From assembly GCA_025055135.1 (NCBI GenBank), contig JANWYU010000208.1, forward strand, positions 1 through 40,588: a stretch of 40,588 nt of DNA, given 5' to 3'. Under the pieces are notes generated by a model. The model was not told where the DNA came from and did no database searches. It saw only the letters and a list, made by a program, of their open reading frames with translations. Below, piece by piece: positions 13,535 to 28,532 of this stretch. The first letter of the stretch is position 1. The number at the start of each line of letters is the position of its first letter. This stretch comes from Pseudobdellovibrionaceae bacterium (lineage in GTDB: Bacteria; Bdellovibrionota; Bdellovibrionia; Bdellovibrionales; Bdellovibrionaceae). A program made the position numbers and the translations under genes.

Positions 13535-14455
13535 ATGGTATCATTTCGTGCTGGTTACCTTGGTTTGATTGGGTTACCCAATTCAGGAAAGAGCACGTTA
13601 CTTAATAGTTTGGTTCAACAGAAGGTTTCTATTGTGTCGCCCAAGCCCCAAACTACACGACAGAGGATATTAGGTTTGTGTTCATTTTCTTCATATCAGG
13701 TGATATTGGTGGATGCCCCTGGTTTGATTAAGGCTAGTTCAGGACTTAATGCCTTTTTAGAAAAAGAGGCCATTCATGTAATTAAGGAAAGTGATGCTTT
13801 GGTGGCAGTGCTTTCTTTGGATGTGGATAGCAAGCAGTCGTTAGATGAAGTGGTGAATTTGGTGCACCGATCGAATAAACCATGGTTTGTGGTAGTTACT
13901 AAAATTGATCTAGTTCATTTGAGCCACCGGAAGCTGCAATTAGTTGATGATTTAAAGCAAAATTTTCCTGAAGTTCCAGTGCTGACTTTCTCTAATACTT
14001 GGACGGGTAGTGAACTTGATAGCTTTAGGGCCGATTTTTTTAGCACGTGTCATCCTATGCTTCCACCGATGCCGTGTCCGTTGTTTGACGTAGATTTAGT
14101 AACACCTCATTCTTTGCGAGATTTATCTGCTGAGATTATTCGAGAAAAATGTTTTTTGGAACTTTCTGACGAGCTACCTTACCAGATTGCGGTTCGTATT
14201 CGCACTTTTTCTGAGAGCGAGAAATTTGCTAAAATTGAAGCTGATATTATTGTTAACAAAGAATCTCAAAAGGCTATGGTCATTGGAACTAAGGGTAGCA
14301 AAATTAAAAGAATTGGAACCTTAGCTCGCAAAGAAATAGAAGACTTATTGGGACATCCCTGTTACTTGGGTTTAACGGTAGTAGTGCGTGAAAATTGGAT
14401 GAAACATCACCTCATAATGAGAGAACTGGGTTACGTTAATGAAAAGAACTCATGA
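13535..14455 (+). CDS. era: GTPase Era
   Basis: 'GLIGLPNSGKSTLLNSLVQQKVSIVSPKPQTTRQRILG', G3 'DAPG', 'TKID', C-terminal KH 'MVIGTKGSKIKRIGTLARKEIEDLLG'. Confidence 0.96.
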   Translation: MVSFRAGYLGLIGLPNSGKSTLLNSLVQQKVSIVSPKPQTTRQRILGLCSFSSYQVILVDAPGLIKASSGLNAFLEKEAIHVIKESDALVAVLSLDVDSKQSLDEVVNLVHRSNKPWFVVVTKIDLVHLSHRKLQLVDDLKQNFPEVPVLTFSNTWTGSELDSFRADFFSTCHPMLPPMPCPLFDVDLVTPHSLRDLSAEIIREKCFLELSDELPYQIAVRIRTFSESEKFAKIEADIIVNKESQKAMVIGTKGSKIKRIGTLARKEIEDLLGHPCYLGLTVVVRENWMKHHLIMRELGYVNEKNS

Positions 14456-15773
14456 TTTTCAGTTACCGAGAGTGGCTATTGTGGGTCGGCCTAATGTGGG
14501 TAAATCGACCCTTTTTAACCTGCTTATTGGTAAACGTAAATCGGTTGTAAAAAATGAACCTGGTGTAACCAGAGATGTTCTGATTGATCGATGTGAGCTT
14601 TGGGGAAAATGGTTTGAAATTATTGATACGGGAGGATTAACTCGGTCGCAAAAATCCCTTGATATGTCAATTTTGGATCAAGTCCAAAATGTATTAAAAA
14701 CTGTGGACTTTGCAATAATGGTAACTGATGGTCGAGAAGGATTAACTAGTGATGATGAGGAGGTATTTCGGTTACTAAAAACAACGGGAGTTCCTTTTTT
14801 TGTCCTGGTTAATAAGGTGGATCATCTCTCTAGTCGGGATTTAGCTAAATCGGATTTTTATAAGTTTGGAGATCAGATTTTTGCAGTGAGTTTGGAGAGT
14901 CGTTTGGGGGTTTCGGAATTTTTAGAATTTTTATATCAACAGTTACCCTCTGTTTCTGAGGAAGATGTGTTACCCACTTTAAAAGTAGCATTAGTTGGCA
15001 AGCCTAATGTGGGAAAAAGCTCGCTCGTTAATGCCTTATTGGGGGAAAAAAGAGTAATAGTTTCGGAAACTCCGGGAACTACTGTTGATGTAGTAGAAAT
15101 TCCTTTTTTTATTGGAGATAGACCCTTTTGTCTGATTGATACCGCGGGATTAAGGCGCTCCAGTCGTCGTAAAGAAGATGTTGAAATTGTGGCATCTTTT
15201 AAAACCCAAGAGGCCATCGCTCAAGCTGATATCCTTTTATTGGTGATTGATTGCGGTGTGGGACCTACCGAGCAGGACGCTACCATTTTACAAAAGATCT
15301 TGGAAGAGCATAAAATGGTTATTGTAGTAGCTAATAAATCTGATGTGGCGAAGGCTCAAGACTCTCATTTTCGGGAGAAGTTCCGAACGGCAGTTGCTCA
15401 GGTATTTCATTTTTATCCGGATATACCAGTAGTTTTTACCAGCGCTCATACCAAGATGGGCTTATCTGACTTAAAAGAAAAAATATTATGGGCTCAGGAA
15501 CAGCTATCGGTACGGATCGCCACATCAGAATTAAACGATTTTTTATTTGATACGATTCGTAAGGCGCCCTCTCCTGTTTGGGGTAATGTTAATGTTAAAT
15601 TTTATTATATGACTCAAACGAAACAGGTTCCTCCCAGTTTCATTGCTTTTTGTAATCATCCTGAAGGGGTAGATCAAGCCTATCGTCGTTTTTTAGTGAA
15701 TCAGATAAAGGAAAAATTTAATTTAAAGGGTGTTCCCGTTCGCGTTTATGTTATGAAAAGTCGGTCTGAGTGA
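14439..15773 (+). CDS. der: Ribosome-associated GTPase Der (EngA), tandem G domains
   Basis: Two G1 motifs 'VGRPNVGKSTLFN' and 'VGKPNVGKSSLVN', 'DTGG' and 'DTAGLRR', KH-like C-terminus; overlaps era by 17 bp. Confidence 0.96.
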   Translation: MKRTHDFQLPRVAIVGRPNVGKSTLFNLLIGKRKSVVKNEPGVTRDVLIDRCELWGKWFEIIDTGGLTRSQKSLDMSILDQVQNVLKTVDFAIMVTDGREGLTSDDEEVFRLLKTTGVPFFVLVNKVDHLSSRDLAKSDFYKFGDQIFAVSLESRLGVSEFLEFLYQQLPSVSEEDVLPTLKVALVGKPNVGKSSLVNALLGEKRVIVSETPGTTVDVVEIPFFIGDRPFCLIDTAGLRRSSRRKEDVEIVASFKTQEAIAQADILLLVIDCGVGPTEQDATILQKILEEHKMVIVVANKSDVAKAQDSHFREKFRTAVAQVFHFYPDIPVVFTSAHTKMGLSDLKEKILWAQEQLSVRIATSELNDFLFDTIRKAPSPVWGNVNVKFYYMTQTKQVPPSFIAFCNHPEGVDQAYRRFLVNQIKEKFNLKGVPVRVYVMKSRSE

Positions 15774-15841: not shown

Positions 15842-18190
15842 ATGCGAAAAATTTTTGGCTCATATCCTATCTATATTGGTGTTATCTTGACCAGTTTAAG
15901 CTTGGGTAACTTTTGGAGATTGCCTTTCTTGGTGGCTCAGGAGGGTTCTGGTGTGTTCTTTTTTTTGTTTGTTACTTTTTTGTTTTTTCTTGGCTTGCCC
16001 ATTCTTATTTCAGAATTAATTGCCCGCCAAATTGTGGAAAAAGAATTCTATCTTTTTCAGGATAAAATTAGTCGACATAAGTGGTTCAAGATTCTGTCTT
16101 TTGTTCCCCTTTTGTTTAGCACGATTATCTTGCTTTATTACTCGATTTTAAGTTCTGGCGTACTTCATCTTTTTATTCAATTTTTAAAAAAGACGCTGGG
16201 GTTTTTACAAAAGTCACAGTTTTTGGAGTTTGCAGGATTTGCTCAACAGCATTGGAAACAACTTCTTTTTTCTTCGACCCATATTTGTATTGTTTTTTTG
16301 TGGATCAGCGCTGATGGCAAGAGGGGTATTAAAAGCGCCCTAACTATTTTGGGTCCATTAGCTTTGTTTGTTGTTTTTTTACTAAATATAACTTTGTTTA
16401 AAGAATTGGGAATTGAGGGTCTAGTTGCCCACATTTTCTACCCAGATTTTGAGAGCTTTAGCTGGCGTTCGTATTTGTTAGCATTTGGACAGGTGTGCTT
16501 TACCCTGGGGTTAGGTTTGTGGCTGCCTGGCGCTTTAGCCCCTAAAGAACTGGGATCGCGAAATATTGCCTCTTTTGCCTTTCAAAATATTTTAGTGGCT
16601 ATGGGAATTTCTTTTTTTGCCCTTATACAAATGTTAGGGGTAGCCCATGTGCTTTCGGGTAGTGAGGCAAAAAATCAATTTATTTTTTTTCAGAATCTTC
16701 CAACATATTTTATGGAAATGGATTATGGTAACTTAATTGGTATTGTTTTTTATGGTGCGGTTTACTTGGTTGCGGTTTTGTCCTCTTTGGGTCTAGCGGA
16801 GAGTGTGGTGGTTAATTTGGAGCGATTACTGAACTGGAATCGTTCTTTTTCCCTCTCAGCTTTGGTAGGGGTTTTAATTGTGGGGGTTGCTACCCTTATT
16901 TTTTTAAGTCGTTGGTTAGAATACTCTACTATGGATTTGGTACTTCACATTGATTTTTGGGTGGTTAATTTTGGTATTACCATAATGGCGGCCTTTTTTT
17001 CGTGGTTAGTGGCCCATTGGTTTAGCATAGAAAGATTAAAACAATTATTTGTCTCGGAAGAAATTATAGAGACGAAGGCTATGTTTAAATATTGGTATTT
17101 TCTGATTCATAGGTTCATTCCTTGGGCCACTTTTATTTTTATTATTTTATTTGTCTTTTCATCGATTGCTTGGGCAGCAGGCTTTCAAGGTCGGTTACAA
17201 CAAAGATTTGAGGTTACTCATCCGGTAGGCGCTGAAGGTGTGACGTCTGATCTGACGATTAGGCGCTTCCGATTAAAATATCAAGGAGAGGTTCCTGAGT
17301 TGCAGAACGTCCGTTACCAGGTACAATTGTCATTTTCCCGGGGCGATCAGTCCTGGGAACAATTGGAGTTCCCCAACATTCTTCGAGATGCCTTCTTTAC
17401 TTGGGATAGAAATGCTGATCATCAAATTCATGTTGGATTAAGAAAGTTACCCGGCAATCGGCAAAGGGTTATTTCCTCAGGTGCCTTAGAGATGACCGAT
17501 CGCTCCCTTGCCAATGGAGAATTTAACTTAGATCGTGATGTTGGATTTTTTAGCTACCATCAATGGCAGCGGGGAACCCATGTTTTTCGAGGTCAAGGAG
17601 CCCTAAGTTCAGGTTTGGGACGTGGGACGCCTTCGCGTTCTGGGACTTTCTTGTTGGCAAGTACTTTACGATTGGAATGGTTACCTTGGGGAGAATTTCT
17701 CAAAGGTGGGGATTATTTTGAGGGTGATTTATTGGGCGAAGAGGATCCCAAATTAAGTATTGGCGTAGTGGCTCATTATAATCCCAACGTGGTTCGTCAT
17801 AGGGGCACGGTGGGATGGTTACTTCCTTCGGATGTGGTTCGAAAAATGGGTACTCTAATTGTAGATACCTTATTTAAGTATCGAGGTTTTTCTTACAGTC
17901 ATGAAATTTTTTATCGTTCATTTAATAACGAAAATTCCGGTGATCCCCAGATTGTGTTATGGTCAGGGTATGGTTACGCAGTGCAGGCGTCCTACAGTTG
18001 GGCACAGAGGTGGTTGGCTGCTTTACGCTATAGTCACATACAGGCAGTCAGTGGTGTTAACTTTTTAAGGGAGGAAACCGTTTTCGGATTAAGCTATTTG
18101 GTGCGTCATCATCGCTTTAAAATTCAAAATGAAGTCTCCATTCTCTCCGAAGAGAGTTACTATCGTTTTCAGGTCGAATTTGGCTTCTAA
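15842..18190 (+). CDS. Fusion ORF: NSS/SNF-family sodium-dependent transporter (N-terminal, about 11 TM) joined in frame to an OprO/P-type outer-membrane porin (C-terminal)
   Basis: N-terminus 'LTSLSLGNFWRLPFLVAQEGSGVFFFLFVTFLFFLGLPILISELIAR' is the NSS TM1-TM2 signature; 11 hydrophobic segments by eye; C-terminus 'AGFQGRLQQRFEV...SDLTIRRFRLKYQGE...VGLRKLPGNRQRVISSGALEMTDRSLANGEFNLDRDVGF...FRVQVEFGF-like end' resembles phosphate-selective porins O/P. Track start is TTG 15821; ATG 15842 (AAGGGA upstream) or GTG 15836 is more likely. Confidence 0.85.
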   Translation: MRKIFGSYPIYIGVILTSLSLGNFWRLPFLVAQEGSGVFFFLFVTFLFFLGLPILISELIARQIVEKEFYLFQDKISRHKWFKILSFVPLLFSTIILLYYSILSSGVLHLFIQFLKKTLGFLQKSQFLEFAGFAQQHWKQLLFSSTHICIVFLWISADGKRGIKSALTILGPLALFVVFLLNITLFKELGIEGLVAHIFYPDFESFSWRSYLLAFGQVCFTLGLGLWLPGALAPKELGSRNIASFAFQNILVAMGISFFALIQMLGVAHVLSGSEAKNQFIFFQNLPTYFMEMDYGNLIGIVFYGAVYLVAVLSSLGLAESVVVNLERLLNWNRSFSLSALVGVLIVGVATLIFLSRWLEYSTMDLVLHIDFWVVNFGITIMAAFFSWLVAHWFSIERLKQLFVSEEIIETKAMFKYWYFLIHRFIPWATFIFIILFVFSSIAWAAGFQGRLQQRFEVTHPVGAEGVTSDLTIRRFRLKYQGEVPELQNVRYQVQLSFSRGDQSWEQLEFPNILRDAFFTWDRNADHQIHVGLRKLPGNRQRVISSGALEMTDRSLANGEFNLDRDVGFFSYHQWQRGTHVFRGQGALSSGLGRGTPSRSGTFLLASTLRLEWLPWGEFLKGGDYFEGDLLGEEDPKLSIGVVAHYNPNVVRHRGTVGWLLPSDVVRKMGTLIVDTLFKYRGFSYSHEIFYRSFNNENSGDPQIVLWSGYGYAVQASYSWAQRWLAALRYSHIQAVSGVNFLREETVFGLSYLVRHHRFKIQNEVSILSEESYYRFQVEFGF

Positions 18191-21846: not shown

Positions 21847-23304
21847 TTAAAAATCTTCCCAATGTTTGAGTTTTTGGAAGGAGATGACGGTGTCTTCCAT
21901 TGCCTCTTGAACATGTCCCAACTCCACTTCTTGGGCTTGGGACCACCAAGCGATCGACTGGGCTACTCGCAGTGTTGCCGTTTTCCTCCTTTGAGATAGT
22001 TCCTGAAACAAAGGATCATGGTTCATGTAATCCGAGATTTTGACCAAGGAAGGCTTGGGTGTTAGTCGAATGCGATCAATTTTATGCCGTAATTCTTTCA
22101 CTGAGATGGTGGGATTTCGATTCAGCCGGCTTTTTGCAAAATAAATGATTTCAAAGCGATCGAGTAGGGGCGTTGTTACTCGAGATGCATAAGACCGACA
22201 CTTTTTTAGAGAATAGCGACAGAAGCGACCAGGTCCCTGACCCGGAACCCAATCGCCGCAGGGGCAGAGGTTGGTAGTGGCCACCACTTGAGCCTGGAAC
22301 GGATAATGTTTTTCTAAGATACCGCGTGTAATGCGCACCATATTAGACTCAAGGGGCTCTCGTAAGGCTTCCTGTGTTTCACTAGAAAATTCGAAAAATT
22401 CATCAAGTAACAGTAAGCCTAAGTGGGCACGGGCGAGCTCTCCCCCATGAGCCATCGTGCCTCCACCGATCAGGGAGTGGAGTGGGATTGTATGATGAGG
22501 ATTCACCAAGGGACGCCAAGCCTTGAGCGGTTCGGTTAGATTCTCCTCACAACCTTTTTTTTGATGAATCCATCTTTTTAAAACGAAATCTTTTAAAGCC
22601 TCTTCCTCCTGGGGAGATGGAATGGGCAGTAGGGCGTGAATGATGTGGGCGGCCGTGGTTTTGCCCGCCCCACTGGCCCCAGCTATGAGTAACGAGTGTT
22701 GTCCTAAAGCAACAACCCCCAATTTTTTCGCCCAATGGTCATTGAGTTGCCACTGAAGGGAATGGGAAGGAGGAGTCCAATGGATTTGGAGGGGATGAGC
22801 TGGCTTTAAATTGGCCTGATTTAATTGGGATAATTGAGGAGCAATTAAGGTATCTGTTTCTAGATTCCATTGGTGTATTCCGGTAACGATGGGGTGCTCT
22901 AGCCTTCTTTTTACAAAGAGTAAAGGCTGTGGGGCTAAAATTTCTCCCTTTAGACTGAGTTCCCCGTAGTAAAAATAATGATGCCAATCCTGCTGCGGAA
23001 GTGTGAGTTGATGGGTTAAGGTTAAATAACCGATGGCAACGGCTAGCTCTAGGCCACGGGAGGATTTTTTAATTTGACTGGGACGTAAATTGACAAGTAC
23101 CTGTTGATTGGGAAAAAACTGGTAACCTTGAGCGCGAATGGCGCTTTTGATCCGTTTGGCCGACTCTTTAAGAAATTGATCGGCGCCCCCTAAAAAGTGC
23201 ACCTCTGGTAACCCTGGCCACAACTCAATTTCAACCTCTACGGGGATAAGCTCCCCATCTTCTTCATAAAAGGAAAACAGTCGCATCAATTTCTTAAAGA
23301 GCAA
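21847..23304 (-). CDS. comM: YifB/ComM-family Mg-chelatase-like AAA+ ATPase
   Basis: N-terminal 'LPEVHFLGGADQFLKESAKRIKSAIRAQGYQFFPNQQVLVNLRPSQIKKSSRGLELAVAIGYL', Walker A 'GASGAGKTTAAH', 'HHTIPLHSLIGGGTMAHGGELARAHLGLLLLDEFFEF', 'TNLCPCGDW...CRSYASRVTTPLLDRFEI'. Confidence 0.92.
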   Translation of the reverse strand: MLFKKLMRLFSFYEEDGELIPVEVEIELWPGLPEVHFLGGADQFLKESAKRIKSAIRAQGYQFFPNQQVLVNLRPSQIKKSSRGLELAVAIGYLTLTHQLTLPQQDWHHYFYYGELSLKGEILAPQPLLFVKRRLEHPIVTGIHQWNLETDTLIAPQLSQLNQANLKPAHPLQIHWTPPSHSLQWQLNDHWAKKLGVVALGQHSLLIAGASGAGKTTAAHIIHALLPIPSPQEEEALKDFVLKRWIHQKKGCEENLTEPLKAWRPLVNPHHTIPLHSLIGGGTMAHGGELARAHLGLLLLDEFFEFSSETQEALREPLESNMVRITRGILEKHYPFQAQVVATTNLCPCGDWVPGQGPGRFCRYSLKKCRSYASRVTTPLLDRFEIIYFAKSRLNRNPTISVKELRHKIDRIRLTPKPSLVKISDYMNHDPLFQELSQRRKTATLRVAQSIAWWSQAQEVELGHVQEAMEDTVISFQKLKHWEDF

Positions 23305-23315
23305 TTGGAGGAGAG

Positions 23316-24191
23316 TTACTCAGACTCGTTTAACTTAGACAAAGGATGATGGGTGTCCAATTCTCGGACGAGATGATTTTGCGTAAGATGCGTGTAAATT
23401 TGCGTGGTTTGAATGCTGGAATGCCCTAGTAGTAGCTGTATCGAACGTAAATCAGCACCATTTTGCAGTAAACTTGTGGCAAACCCATGACGAAAACGGT
23501 GCGGGTTTATGGTTTCCGAAAAACCAGCGTCTTTGGACCATCGGTGCAGCCAGCGCCATACGTCCACCCGAGAGGGGCGATGGCCGCGATCATTAATCAC
23601 AAAACTCTGTTCAAATTTTGATTTCAGTAATTGGGGGCGGATGTTTTCCAAGTAGACGTGAATTTTAGGAATTAGAAGGGATGGAATCGGCACTAACCGT
23701 TCCTTTTGAGCCTTTCCTGTAATTTTAAAAACGCCTTCAGTAGCAAAATAGTCATTTAAATTTAATTGAATCAATTCGCTCACTCGACATCCAAGGCCGT
23801 ACAGTAACCACAGAACCATGTGATTACGATGGGAGCGAATAGCGTTTGGAGATGTGGAGGCCTGATAGAGCCTTTCGAATTCGGAGAAGGTCAAAACCTT
23901 TGGTAAAGTGGTTTTGATTTTGGGAGGGCGTAATTCGCTGAGATTGGGAATTTTTAGTCCTTTTTGGTAACAGAATTTTAAATAAGTACGAATGGAAGAA
24001 ATAATTCGAGCTTGGGATCGTACGCTGAGCTTTAATGTTTGAAGATAGGCAAAAATTTCATTCAATGGGCGCTTTTGTTCTAGAAATTTTTCATAAACCT
24101 CTAGATCCCGGCGGTAGGCCTGTACCGTATTTGGGGAGCGGCCACGTACTAATTGTAAGTCTTCGAAAAATTCTACCCAATAGGGTAACAT
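23316..24191 (-). CDS. Tyrosine recombinase, XerC/XerD-like
   Basis: N-terminal SAM-like domain 'RGRSPNTVQAYRRDLEVYEKFL'; catalytic 'GLGCRVSELIQL', 'HRFRHGFATSLLQNGADLRSIQLLLGHSSIQTTQIYTH'. Confidence 0.92.
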   Translation of the reverse strand: MLPYWVEFFEDLQLVRGRSPNTVQAYRRDLEVYEKFLEQKRPLNEIFAYLQTLKLSVRSQARIISSIRTYLKFCYQKGLKIPNLSELRPPKIKTTLPKVLTFSEFERLYQASTSPNAIRSHRNHMVLWLLYGLGCRVSELIQLNLNDYFATEGVFKITGKAQKERLVPIPSLLIPKIHVYLENIRPQLLKSKFEQSFVINDRGHRPSRVDVWRWLHRWSKDAGFSETINPHRFRHGFATSLLQNGADLRSIQLLLGHSSIQTTQIYTHLTQNHLVRELDTHHPLSKLNESE

Positions 24192-26220: not shown

Positions 26221-27417
26221 ATGTGTTCATTTCATTCGCTTATCCAATTTCAATTCTATGTGTTATGGTTTAAGAGGTTTTCGCGTTTTGGTGTTAGTTG
26301 GGGTTTGGTAGCCCTTATTCTTTTTTCTGGTAACACAAGTTGTAAAGAGGAACAACAAGCAGGTACGGCAGAACAAGGTCGACAGTTGCGTCGCCGGGTT
26401 CAGATGGGAACGATTAAAGCTCCTGAAATCCAATTGCCTCAAGGAGGAAAGTTTGATTTTCAGTATGCTGCCAATGCCCAATTGTATCATGTGTTAACCA
26501 AGACTCAGGCGTTTTCCACAGCAACTATTGATCCCAACAAAATATATGATCCTTCTGGATTAAGCGATGTGGAGGCTAATCAATTTCGTAGGTGCGAGGA
26601 TCAAGATGAGGTCATGGTTTATTATCGTGGGTTTGGGTATGTGAAAGAAAGCTTCTCTAAAGTTGCCGGTTGTATGATTGATTTGCCCCAAGGATTGATT
26701 TCAGGGAACATTATCGATTTTGCTCTTATTAACAAAACCAATTTTAGATTAGGGTTACCTCAAATCCCTCTATTAAGTGGTTTTGAGTTTGAGTTTCAGA
26801 AGTTCGAATTATCCATGGGCATGAGGGTGATGCATCCTCTCATTCAAGGAGGGATTCAGTCTGGTGATCGCAAGATAATCGCTACCACCGAGCAAAACAA
26901 ATATGTTAAAGATTACGGATTTGGATTAAAGCTCAATTTTTCTGGATTTGAATTCGGGCCCAGCATGTATTTTAAATCTCCCTTACGTAAAGTTGTGGAT
27001 GATGCTTTAGTTGCCTCTGTTACCGATTTGGCCCGTCAATGGAACCTTAAAGAGCCTTGGTATGCCATGATTTTGAGAGCATGTGACAAATATATTTATG
27101 TTAATGCAGGAAGTACAAGCGACGCCAATTTAAAGGTAGGTGACATTTTACGAATTCACAACGTTACCTATCGCTGGCGCGGACCTGCTTGCAAAGCAGG
27201 ATCCCAGCTATTGGGAGCTATTGATGCAGTAGAAGGGCCCGTTGGTTATGCGAGGGTAGTGAGTGTGGGAGATACCATGTCAGCCGCGCTAGTTTTAGAC
27301 AATGATCCTCAATATCCCCACTCTCGAGAGGTGATTCGTCCCGGCGCTCGGGTTTATATGGAAAAAATGGTAGAACCCCCTCAAAAACCAAAAGAAAATT
27401 CATCAACAAAAAAGTAA
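26221..27417 (+). CDS. Putative exported/lipoprotein-like hypothetical protein
   Basis: Hydrophobic N-terminus then 'GNTSCKEEQQAG'; C-terminal 'NLKVGDILRIHNV...GYARVVSVGDTMSAALV' segment. Confidence 0.65.
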   Translation: MCSFHSLIQFQFYVLWFKRFSRFGVSWGLVALILFSGNTSCKEEQQAGTAEQGRQLRRRVQMGTIKAPEIQLPQGGKFDFQYAANAQLYHVLTKTQAFSTATIDPNKIYDPSGLSDVEANQFRRCEDQDEVMVYYRGFGYVKESFSKVAGCMIDLPQGLISGNIIDFALINKTNFRLGLPQIPLLSGFEFEFQKFELSMGMRVMHPLIQGGIQSGDRKIIATTEQNKYVKDYGFGLKLNFSGFEFGPSMYFKSPLRKVVDDALVASVTDLARQWNLKEPWYAMILRACDKYIYVNAGSTSDANLKVGDILRIHNVTYRWRGPACKAGSQLLGAIDAVEGPVGYARVVSVGDTMSAALVLDNDPQYPHSREVIRPGARVYMEKMVEPPQKPKENSSTKK

Positions 27418-27461
27418 TAAAATTTTTTGATCTTCCCCAACTCTTATGAAATTCTGAAGGG

Positions 27462-28532
27462 GTGATACTGGTTCTCATTCAGAGTTGGTTGACTGTGGCA
27501 TTTGGTCAGATACCTCCCCCACCAGCTATTGAAGGTTGTGGTGGGCGGGGGCAATTGACCCTAAGCAATTACGTTTTTTTGGCCCCTTCATCTCAGTTAC
27601 AAAAAAGTTTAATTGGGTTACCCCAAGGTCAGATTTTAGGCCTTTGTGAGGGATATGATGGGGTAGCAGGCATTGAGGTAGAGCTACGTTACCCGCATCC
27701 GTTAGAACAAAGATCAGGGCCATGGCTGCAAAGATTGGAATGGGTGCAGCAGATAGGCACATGGGAGGGGGCGATAGGGGTGATGTGGGATCCTTGGATT
27801 TTGTGGAATCATGAGCATTGGCAAAAACACCTTGTTGATGTTTCTCTGAGGCATTTCTCATGGCGGTTGGGTTGGATACCGCCCAGCGAGAGCGGGATAG
27901 GGATTGTGCGTCCCCTTTCGGATGGGGAAGTGGGGTTTCGTATCACCCAAGGGGTGGACTTCAAGCCCCTTTTTAACAAGGATTTCGTATGTTGGATGAA
28001 TTTTACTTATCATCAACTAAGCGTGTTACTGTATTCACGCCTTGGTTTCTATGAAATGATCAATGAACATTCCAACCACAGGCATCGCTATGGAGCATCC
28101 CTTGCAATAGATTTGGGACCGAACCCTGTTCGATGGGGGGTTAGCTATCTTCATCATCAATCAGGGGCTGATGGGGTGAAATTCTTTAATCTTAATTTGC
28201 CCGCTAATGCCGTCCCATTCAGCTATCACTTTGACACTTATGGGTGGGAAGGTGGGGTTTTGGAGGGAGGGCTTTGGGACTGGTGGGTTACCTATCGGTT
28301 ACCATTTGGTGAATTTTTTTTTCGGGGGGAGGAGGGTTACGTCGTGAAGAATGTAGGTGATGCTTGGTTTCAATCGTTGGGAATGGGTTATCAATGGAAA
28401 CACAATCGCTCCGGTACTTGGTCGATTTATTTGTTGGATATGGAATTAGGAAAATCCTTTAAACTGATGAGTCACATGTGGCTAGGGTTGGTTTGGCAAA
28501 TGCATTTTTTTGACGGATTCTTGATTTGGTAG
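27462..28532 (+). CDS. Hypothetical exported protein, possibly outer-membrane beta-barrel
   Basis: GTG start; signal-like 'MILVLIQSWLTVAFGQ'; alternating aromatic/Gly-rich strands, ends '...MHFFDGFLIW'. Confidence 0.6.
   Translation: MILVLIQSWLTVAFGQIPPPPAIEGCGGRGQLTLSNYVFLAPSSQLQKSLIGLPQGQILGLCEGYDGVAGIEVELRYPHPLEQRSGPWLQRLEWVQQIGTWEGAIGVMWDPWILWNHEHWQKHLVDVSLRHFSWRLGWIPPSESGIGIVRPLSDGEVGFRITQGVDFKPLFNKDFVCWMNFTYHQLSVLLYSRLGFYEMINEHSNHRHRYGASLAIDLGPNPVRWGVSYLHHQSGADGVKFFNLNLPANAVPFSYHFDTYGWEGGVLEGGLWDWWVTYRLPFGEFFFRGEEGYVVKNVGDAWFQSLGMGYQWKHNRSGTWSIYLLDMELGKSFKLMSHMWLGLVWQMHFFDGFLIW

Follow-up and report, generated by a model that had tools for sequence, protein, structure and literature searches.

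The DNA analysed here (the window) is an entire contig of 40.6 kb (40,588 nucleotides) from one 1.99 Mb MAG of 231 contigs. A single open frame at 15842-18190 of the forward strand runs for 782 codons without a stop and encodes an NSS/SNF transporter followed by a Porin_O_P barrel. The frame starts at ATG 15842 or TTG 15821 and is closed by the stop codon at 18188-18190; in the NSS part, each of the five remaining frames contains 17-29 stops. Pfam recognizes SNF (PF00209) in the first half (E=2.5e-10, 40.2 bits against a curated cut-off of 27) and Porin_O_P (PF07396) in the second (E=3.9e-6, 26.8 bits against a cut-off of 20.9). An earlier note made from the sequence had given the peptide at the junction, an in-frame ATG at 17081 and an AWA-AG boundary after base 17176, and translation reproduces all three exactly: reading from 17081 gives MFKYWYFLIHRFIPWATFIFIILFVFSSIAWA followed directly by AGFQGR, in frame with the transporter upstream and the porin downstream. 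The observation of a transporter-porin fusion with an AWA-AG junction is thus confirmed. The two halves were aligned and folded separately, as the two families overlapped in a joint alignment.

The N-terminus and TM1-TM10 of the transporter (residues 1-413) occupy positions 15842-17080 of the forward strand and are identified by PF00209, by NSS matches in the PDB, by the predicted fold and by their place after era-der. The AlphaFold model of the NSS half (pLDDT 84) has the LeuT/MhsT fold, with a TM-score of 0.79 to MhsT (4us4), and contains a helix at residues 409-445. The proposal that the helix at the junction resembles the last helix of NSS transporters is borne out by alignment: the segment at 17081-17176 of the forward strand (residues 414-445) aligns with TM11 of 42 distinct NSS relatives and carries the conserved TM11 residues W418 (98% conserved) and P427 (95%). 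In these 42 relatives, one of which ends at its contig edge, the last helix follows a motif like 'FVDxxxxxSxxMYxHWxFxLRWxxPxVI' and the protein stops within a few residues, while the corresponding sequence in the window is FVSEEIIETKAMFKYWYFLIHRFIPWATFIFIILFVF followed by SSIAWA-AGFQGR. The NSS half contains eleven hydrophobic segments, and lysines and arginines number 20 in the cytoplasmic loops versus 9 outside, a pattern that predicts a cytoplasmic N-terminus and a periplasmic end of TM11. TM11 thus runs N-in/C-out after ten other helices, which is the topology of a signal peptide.

The predicted mature porin (17177-18187, forward strand) is modelled by AlphaFold with a pLDDT of 88 as a barrel of 16 strands, whose fold matches OprP/OprO and general porins. 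Together with the PF07396 match and the retention of 57 of the 60 near-invariant porin columns, this places it in Porin_O_P. Its stand-alone relatives are about 400 residues long and have short signal peptides of their own. The distance from the cut to the first conserved barrel residue is usually 27-60 residues in these relatives, as opposed to 5 in the window. The genome holds just one NSS protein and one Porin_O_P protein.

Between the two halves lies a candidate signal peptidase I (SPase I) site, the cut being predicted between Ala445 and Ala446, after base 17176 (17174-17179, forward strand), from the A-W-A/A-G motif. By itself, a bare A-x-A says little, as it also occurs, in mid-helix, in 8 of 41 NSS tails. 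On a matrix derived from the c-regions of 66 porin signal peptides, however, SSIAWA reaches 11.3, which exceeds the 95th percentile of the porin sites themselves (10.4), the top site among 56 NSS tails (8.8) and the next-best site in the NSS half of the window (5.7); because the sites that went into the matrix were picked by rule, these scores serve as a relative yardstick only. The signal peptides of stand-alone porins end similarly, for example in VFSSLAWS before QD, and locus L037 reads MLLVLVFSSLAWS before QDLL. The gene for the signal peptidase LepB is present in the genome. Two further claims thus held up, namely that the helix ends in an AxA site of the SPase I type and that the porin sequence starts right after it: the site is the best of its kind in the NSS half, and strand 1 of the model begins two residues past the predicted cut, at about residue 447.

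NSS proteins were found in 143 of 369 genomes of the phylum, and none of the matches listed for these 143 genomes is fused. The porin was found in 18 genomes of the phylum, that of the window included; it is fused neither in the other genomes among these 18 nor at 80 further porin loci from genome_contigs, and it was not found in any other family member tested. No close relative of the whole fused protein was found in genome_contigs or viral_contigs. A 562-residue porin frame in another genome (G089) was considered as a second fusion and rejected, since its extra length is only open sequence ahead of a normal signal peptide. Relatives of the Porin_O_P protein are common among Bacteroidota and Kapabacteria, and in the phylum of the window their distribution is patchy; given this patchiness, and because none was found in the other family members tested, lateral acquisition of the porin is possible. 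In relatives, the NSS gene follows era-der, and in the window era-der precedes the fusion, with der (EngA), a GTPase gene whose position upstream of NSS is conserved in relatives with the stand-alone gene, at 14439-15773 of the forward strand. The retention of the era-der-NSS order implies that the first half of the fusion is the resident NSS orthologue. Farther along the contig, a tyrosine recombinase of the phage-integrase family (23319-24191, reverse strand), probably of the housekeeping XerC/D type, lies beside a ComM/ChlI-like gene (21850-23304, reverse strand), and the region 26221-28532 encodes two adjoining proteins of 398 and 356 amino acids with no Pfam match at 1e-5.

That the fusion was not found conserved in any of the relatives examined, that the MAG is in 231 contigs and that the junction is T-rich are all points in favour of an assembly chimera or a consensus error that merged two separate genes. 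We regard this as quite unlikely, because the join preserves the reading frame, the length of the helix and the cleavage site together, unlike a random join. Furthermore, the junction DNA is not repeated in the genome (the best other match is 25 bases long at 88%), composition is smooth across the region, and the flanks match the same family, with era/der synteny on the left and, on the right, transglycosylase and MutM genes whose best matches are family members.

The ATG at 17081-17083 (forward strand) raises the possibility, put forward in the earlier note, that the porin is translated separately, with TM11 acting as an ordinary N-terminal signal peptide and the transporter frame simply running on. 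The ATG is in the right place and frame, the peptide that begins with it has a plausible n-region (with K, H and R), h-core and c-region, and several starts in the contig have no ribosome-binding site anyway. The ribosome site before 17081 is nevertheless weak (-3.8 kcal/mol, at a spacing of 1-2 nt, which ranks 28th among the 77 internal ATGs in the genes of the window), and no promoter signal above that of shuffled sequence was found upstream. The position of this methionine is occupied by M or L in 39 of the 42 non-fused NSS relatives, so that the ATG most likely predates the fusion, as judged from the alignment: the codon noticed earlier is present, but it appears to be an ancestral NSS residue rather than a start codon brought in by the porin. 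Finally, despite its fast evolution the NSS half has stayed in frame, which would be needless if the porin were made independently. Separate translation from 17081 is therefore, in our opinion, unlikely.

Within its family, the NSS half stands out as the most divergent member, with a mean identity of 24% versus a median of 49%. It is 26-27% identical to its relatives, which are 47-64% identical among themselves, and its neighbours do not follow it to the same extent: mnmA (58-62% to relatives versus 61-70% among relatives) has no comparable divergence, and der (53-56% versus 64-75%) is moderately more divergent. The NSS tree places the fusion together with an NSS protein of another genome of the same family, G011, but the placement is unsure, with a branch of 7.1 versus a median of 0.4. 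At the G011 locus (L165, G011:C175, 1179-3850) the NSS gene lies directly after der, is unfused and is itself rather divergent, with 62 of 78 near-invariant columns kept; G011 may be the nearest relative among the genomes compared. The fusion retains 44 of 73 near-invariant NSS positions (60%), versus about 99% in the median member of the family. N27, R30 and T254 are kept, and the equivalents of LeuT A22, G24, S256 and N286 (D at LeuT 286), which belong to the sodium and substrate sites, are changed. Thus, the family match and the LeuT fold make the NSS half a homologue of PF00209 transporters, but with these conserved sodium- and substrate-site residues altered, judged from its sequence it is doubtful as a working symporter.

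These losses are also what one would look for in a recent accidental fusion that is heading for loss, with neither half properly made. This appears improbable: the frame holds 782 codons without a stop, the hydrophobic pattern and the fold are preserved, the porin has lost only three of its near-invariant positions, and the long NSS branch means that there was enough time for stops to arise. At 0.2 changes per site, an NSS half drifting neutrally would have gathered about 11 stops; none is observed, so translation through the NSS half is probably under selection. Its divergence fits a relaxed transporter for which translation is still required, as it would be if the export signal of the porin resides in it; a changed substrate is an alternative account. 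It is even possible, though we put this forward tentatively, that the transporter half no longer transports, or is ceasing to, and survives mainly as a long multi-pass export leader, its last helix having become the only signal peptide of the sole Porin_O_P of the genome.

Taken together, the locus has a polytopic part with its C-terminus outside, then a putative SPase I site and then an exported domain, all in one frame, which is the pattern of a processed polyprotein. We consider it fairly likely that an era-der-linked NSS gene and an OprP-like porin gene have fused and that LepB separates the two products. An in-frame deletion would have joined TM11 to the end of the former signal peptide of the porin, so that the join would lie inside two hydrophobic segments, with NSS TM11 as the front of the dual-role helix and the c-region of the old signal peptide as its end; the same deletion would have taken away a stretch of about 25 residues found ahead of the barrel in other porins. 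The polyprotein would insert as an 11-helix membrane protein with the C-terminus of TM11 in the periplasm, LepB would cut after AWA, and the freed porin would reach the outer membrane via the usual Bam route. With a link of only about 5 residues between the helix and the barrel, the uncut product would be unable to function in both membranes, which means that the porin is either cut, made separately or not made. The release of the porin from a polyprotein by signal peptidase, as envisaged in the earlier note, is thus in agreement with the alignment of TM11, the topology and the strong site before strand 1, with the cleavage itself predicted from these features. Since many conserved NSS residues are lost, one of the two products may not work as a transporter.

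The arrangement is of interest as a natural test of how far membrane-spanning helices and cleavable signal peptides resemble one another, since a single helix has to pack into the LeuT fold and also be recognized by signal peptidase. By this simple route two proteins of different membranes can come to share a start codon, and a decaying transporter could in this way be kept by its passenger. The literature searched yielded no description of a symporter whose own terminal helix doubles as the signal peptide for an outer-membrane porin.

Each half of the fusion has well-known counterparts. The bacterial NSS transporters MhsT and LeuT share with it the fold and the first 11 helices, but the fusion has a C-terminal porin added and many near-invariant residues changed. 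The Porin_O_P proteins OprP and OprO share the 16-strand barrel and PF07396 with the second half, which differs from them in having no separate signal peptide and a shortened N-terminus. A polyprotein similar in principle is FbcH of Bradyrhizobium japonicum, in which cytochromes b and c1 are separated by signal peptidase and the second protein retains its own signal sequence after the cytochrome b helices. There too, one gene encodes a polytopic inner-membrane protein together with an exported one; in the fusion, however, the signal would be the transporter's own last helix, and the second protein would go to the outer membrane. In Staphylococcus aureus, SpsB cuts the polytopic LtaS between Ala217 and Ser218 (PMC10865820). 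The SPase I cut that follows a polytopic domain and releases an extracytoplasmic part is the arrangement predicted for the fusion, but LtaS is one enzyme family and its release concerns one activity, whereas the fusion joins two unrelated families. In TraG of the F plasmid, too, a polytopic protein is fused to a periplasmic one and an SPase I site is predicted downstream of the helices, and for a long time TraG was believed to be cleaved behind Ala451; its C-terminal domain, however, appears to need anchoring, and TraG is thought to act uncut, with a flexible linker (PMC7555446). The example is a warning that SPase I may not act on a site predicted behind a polytopic domain. In the fusion, by contrast with TraG, the link of about 5 residues makes an uncut product that spans two membranes physically implausible.
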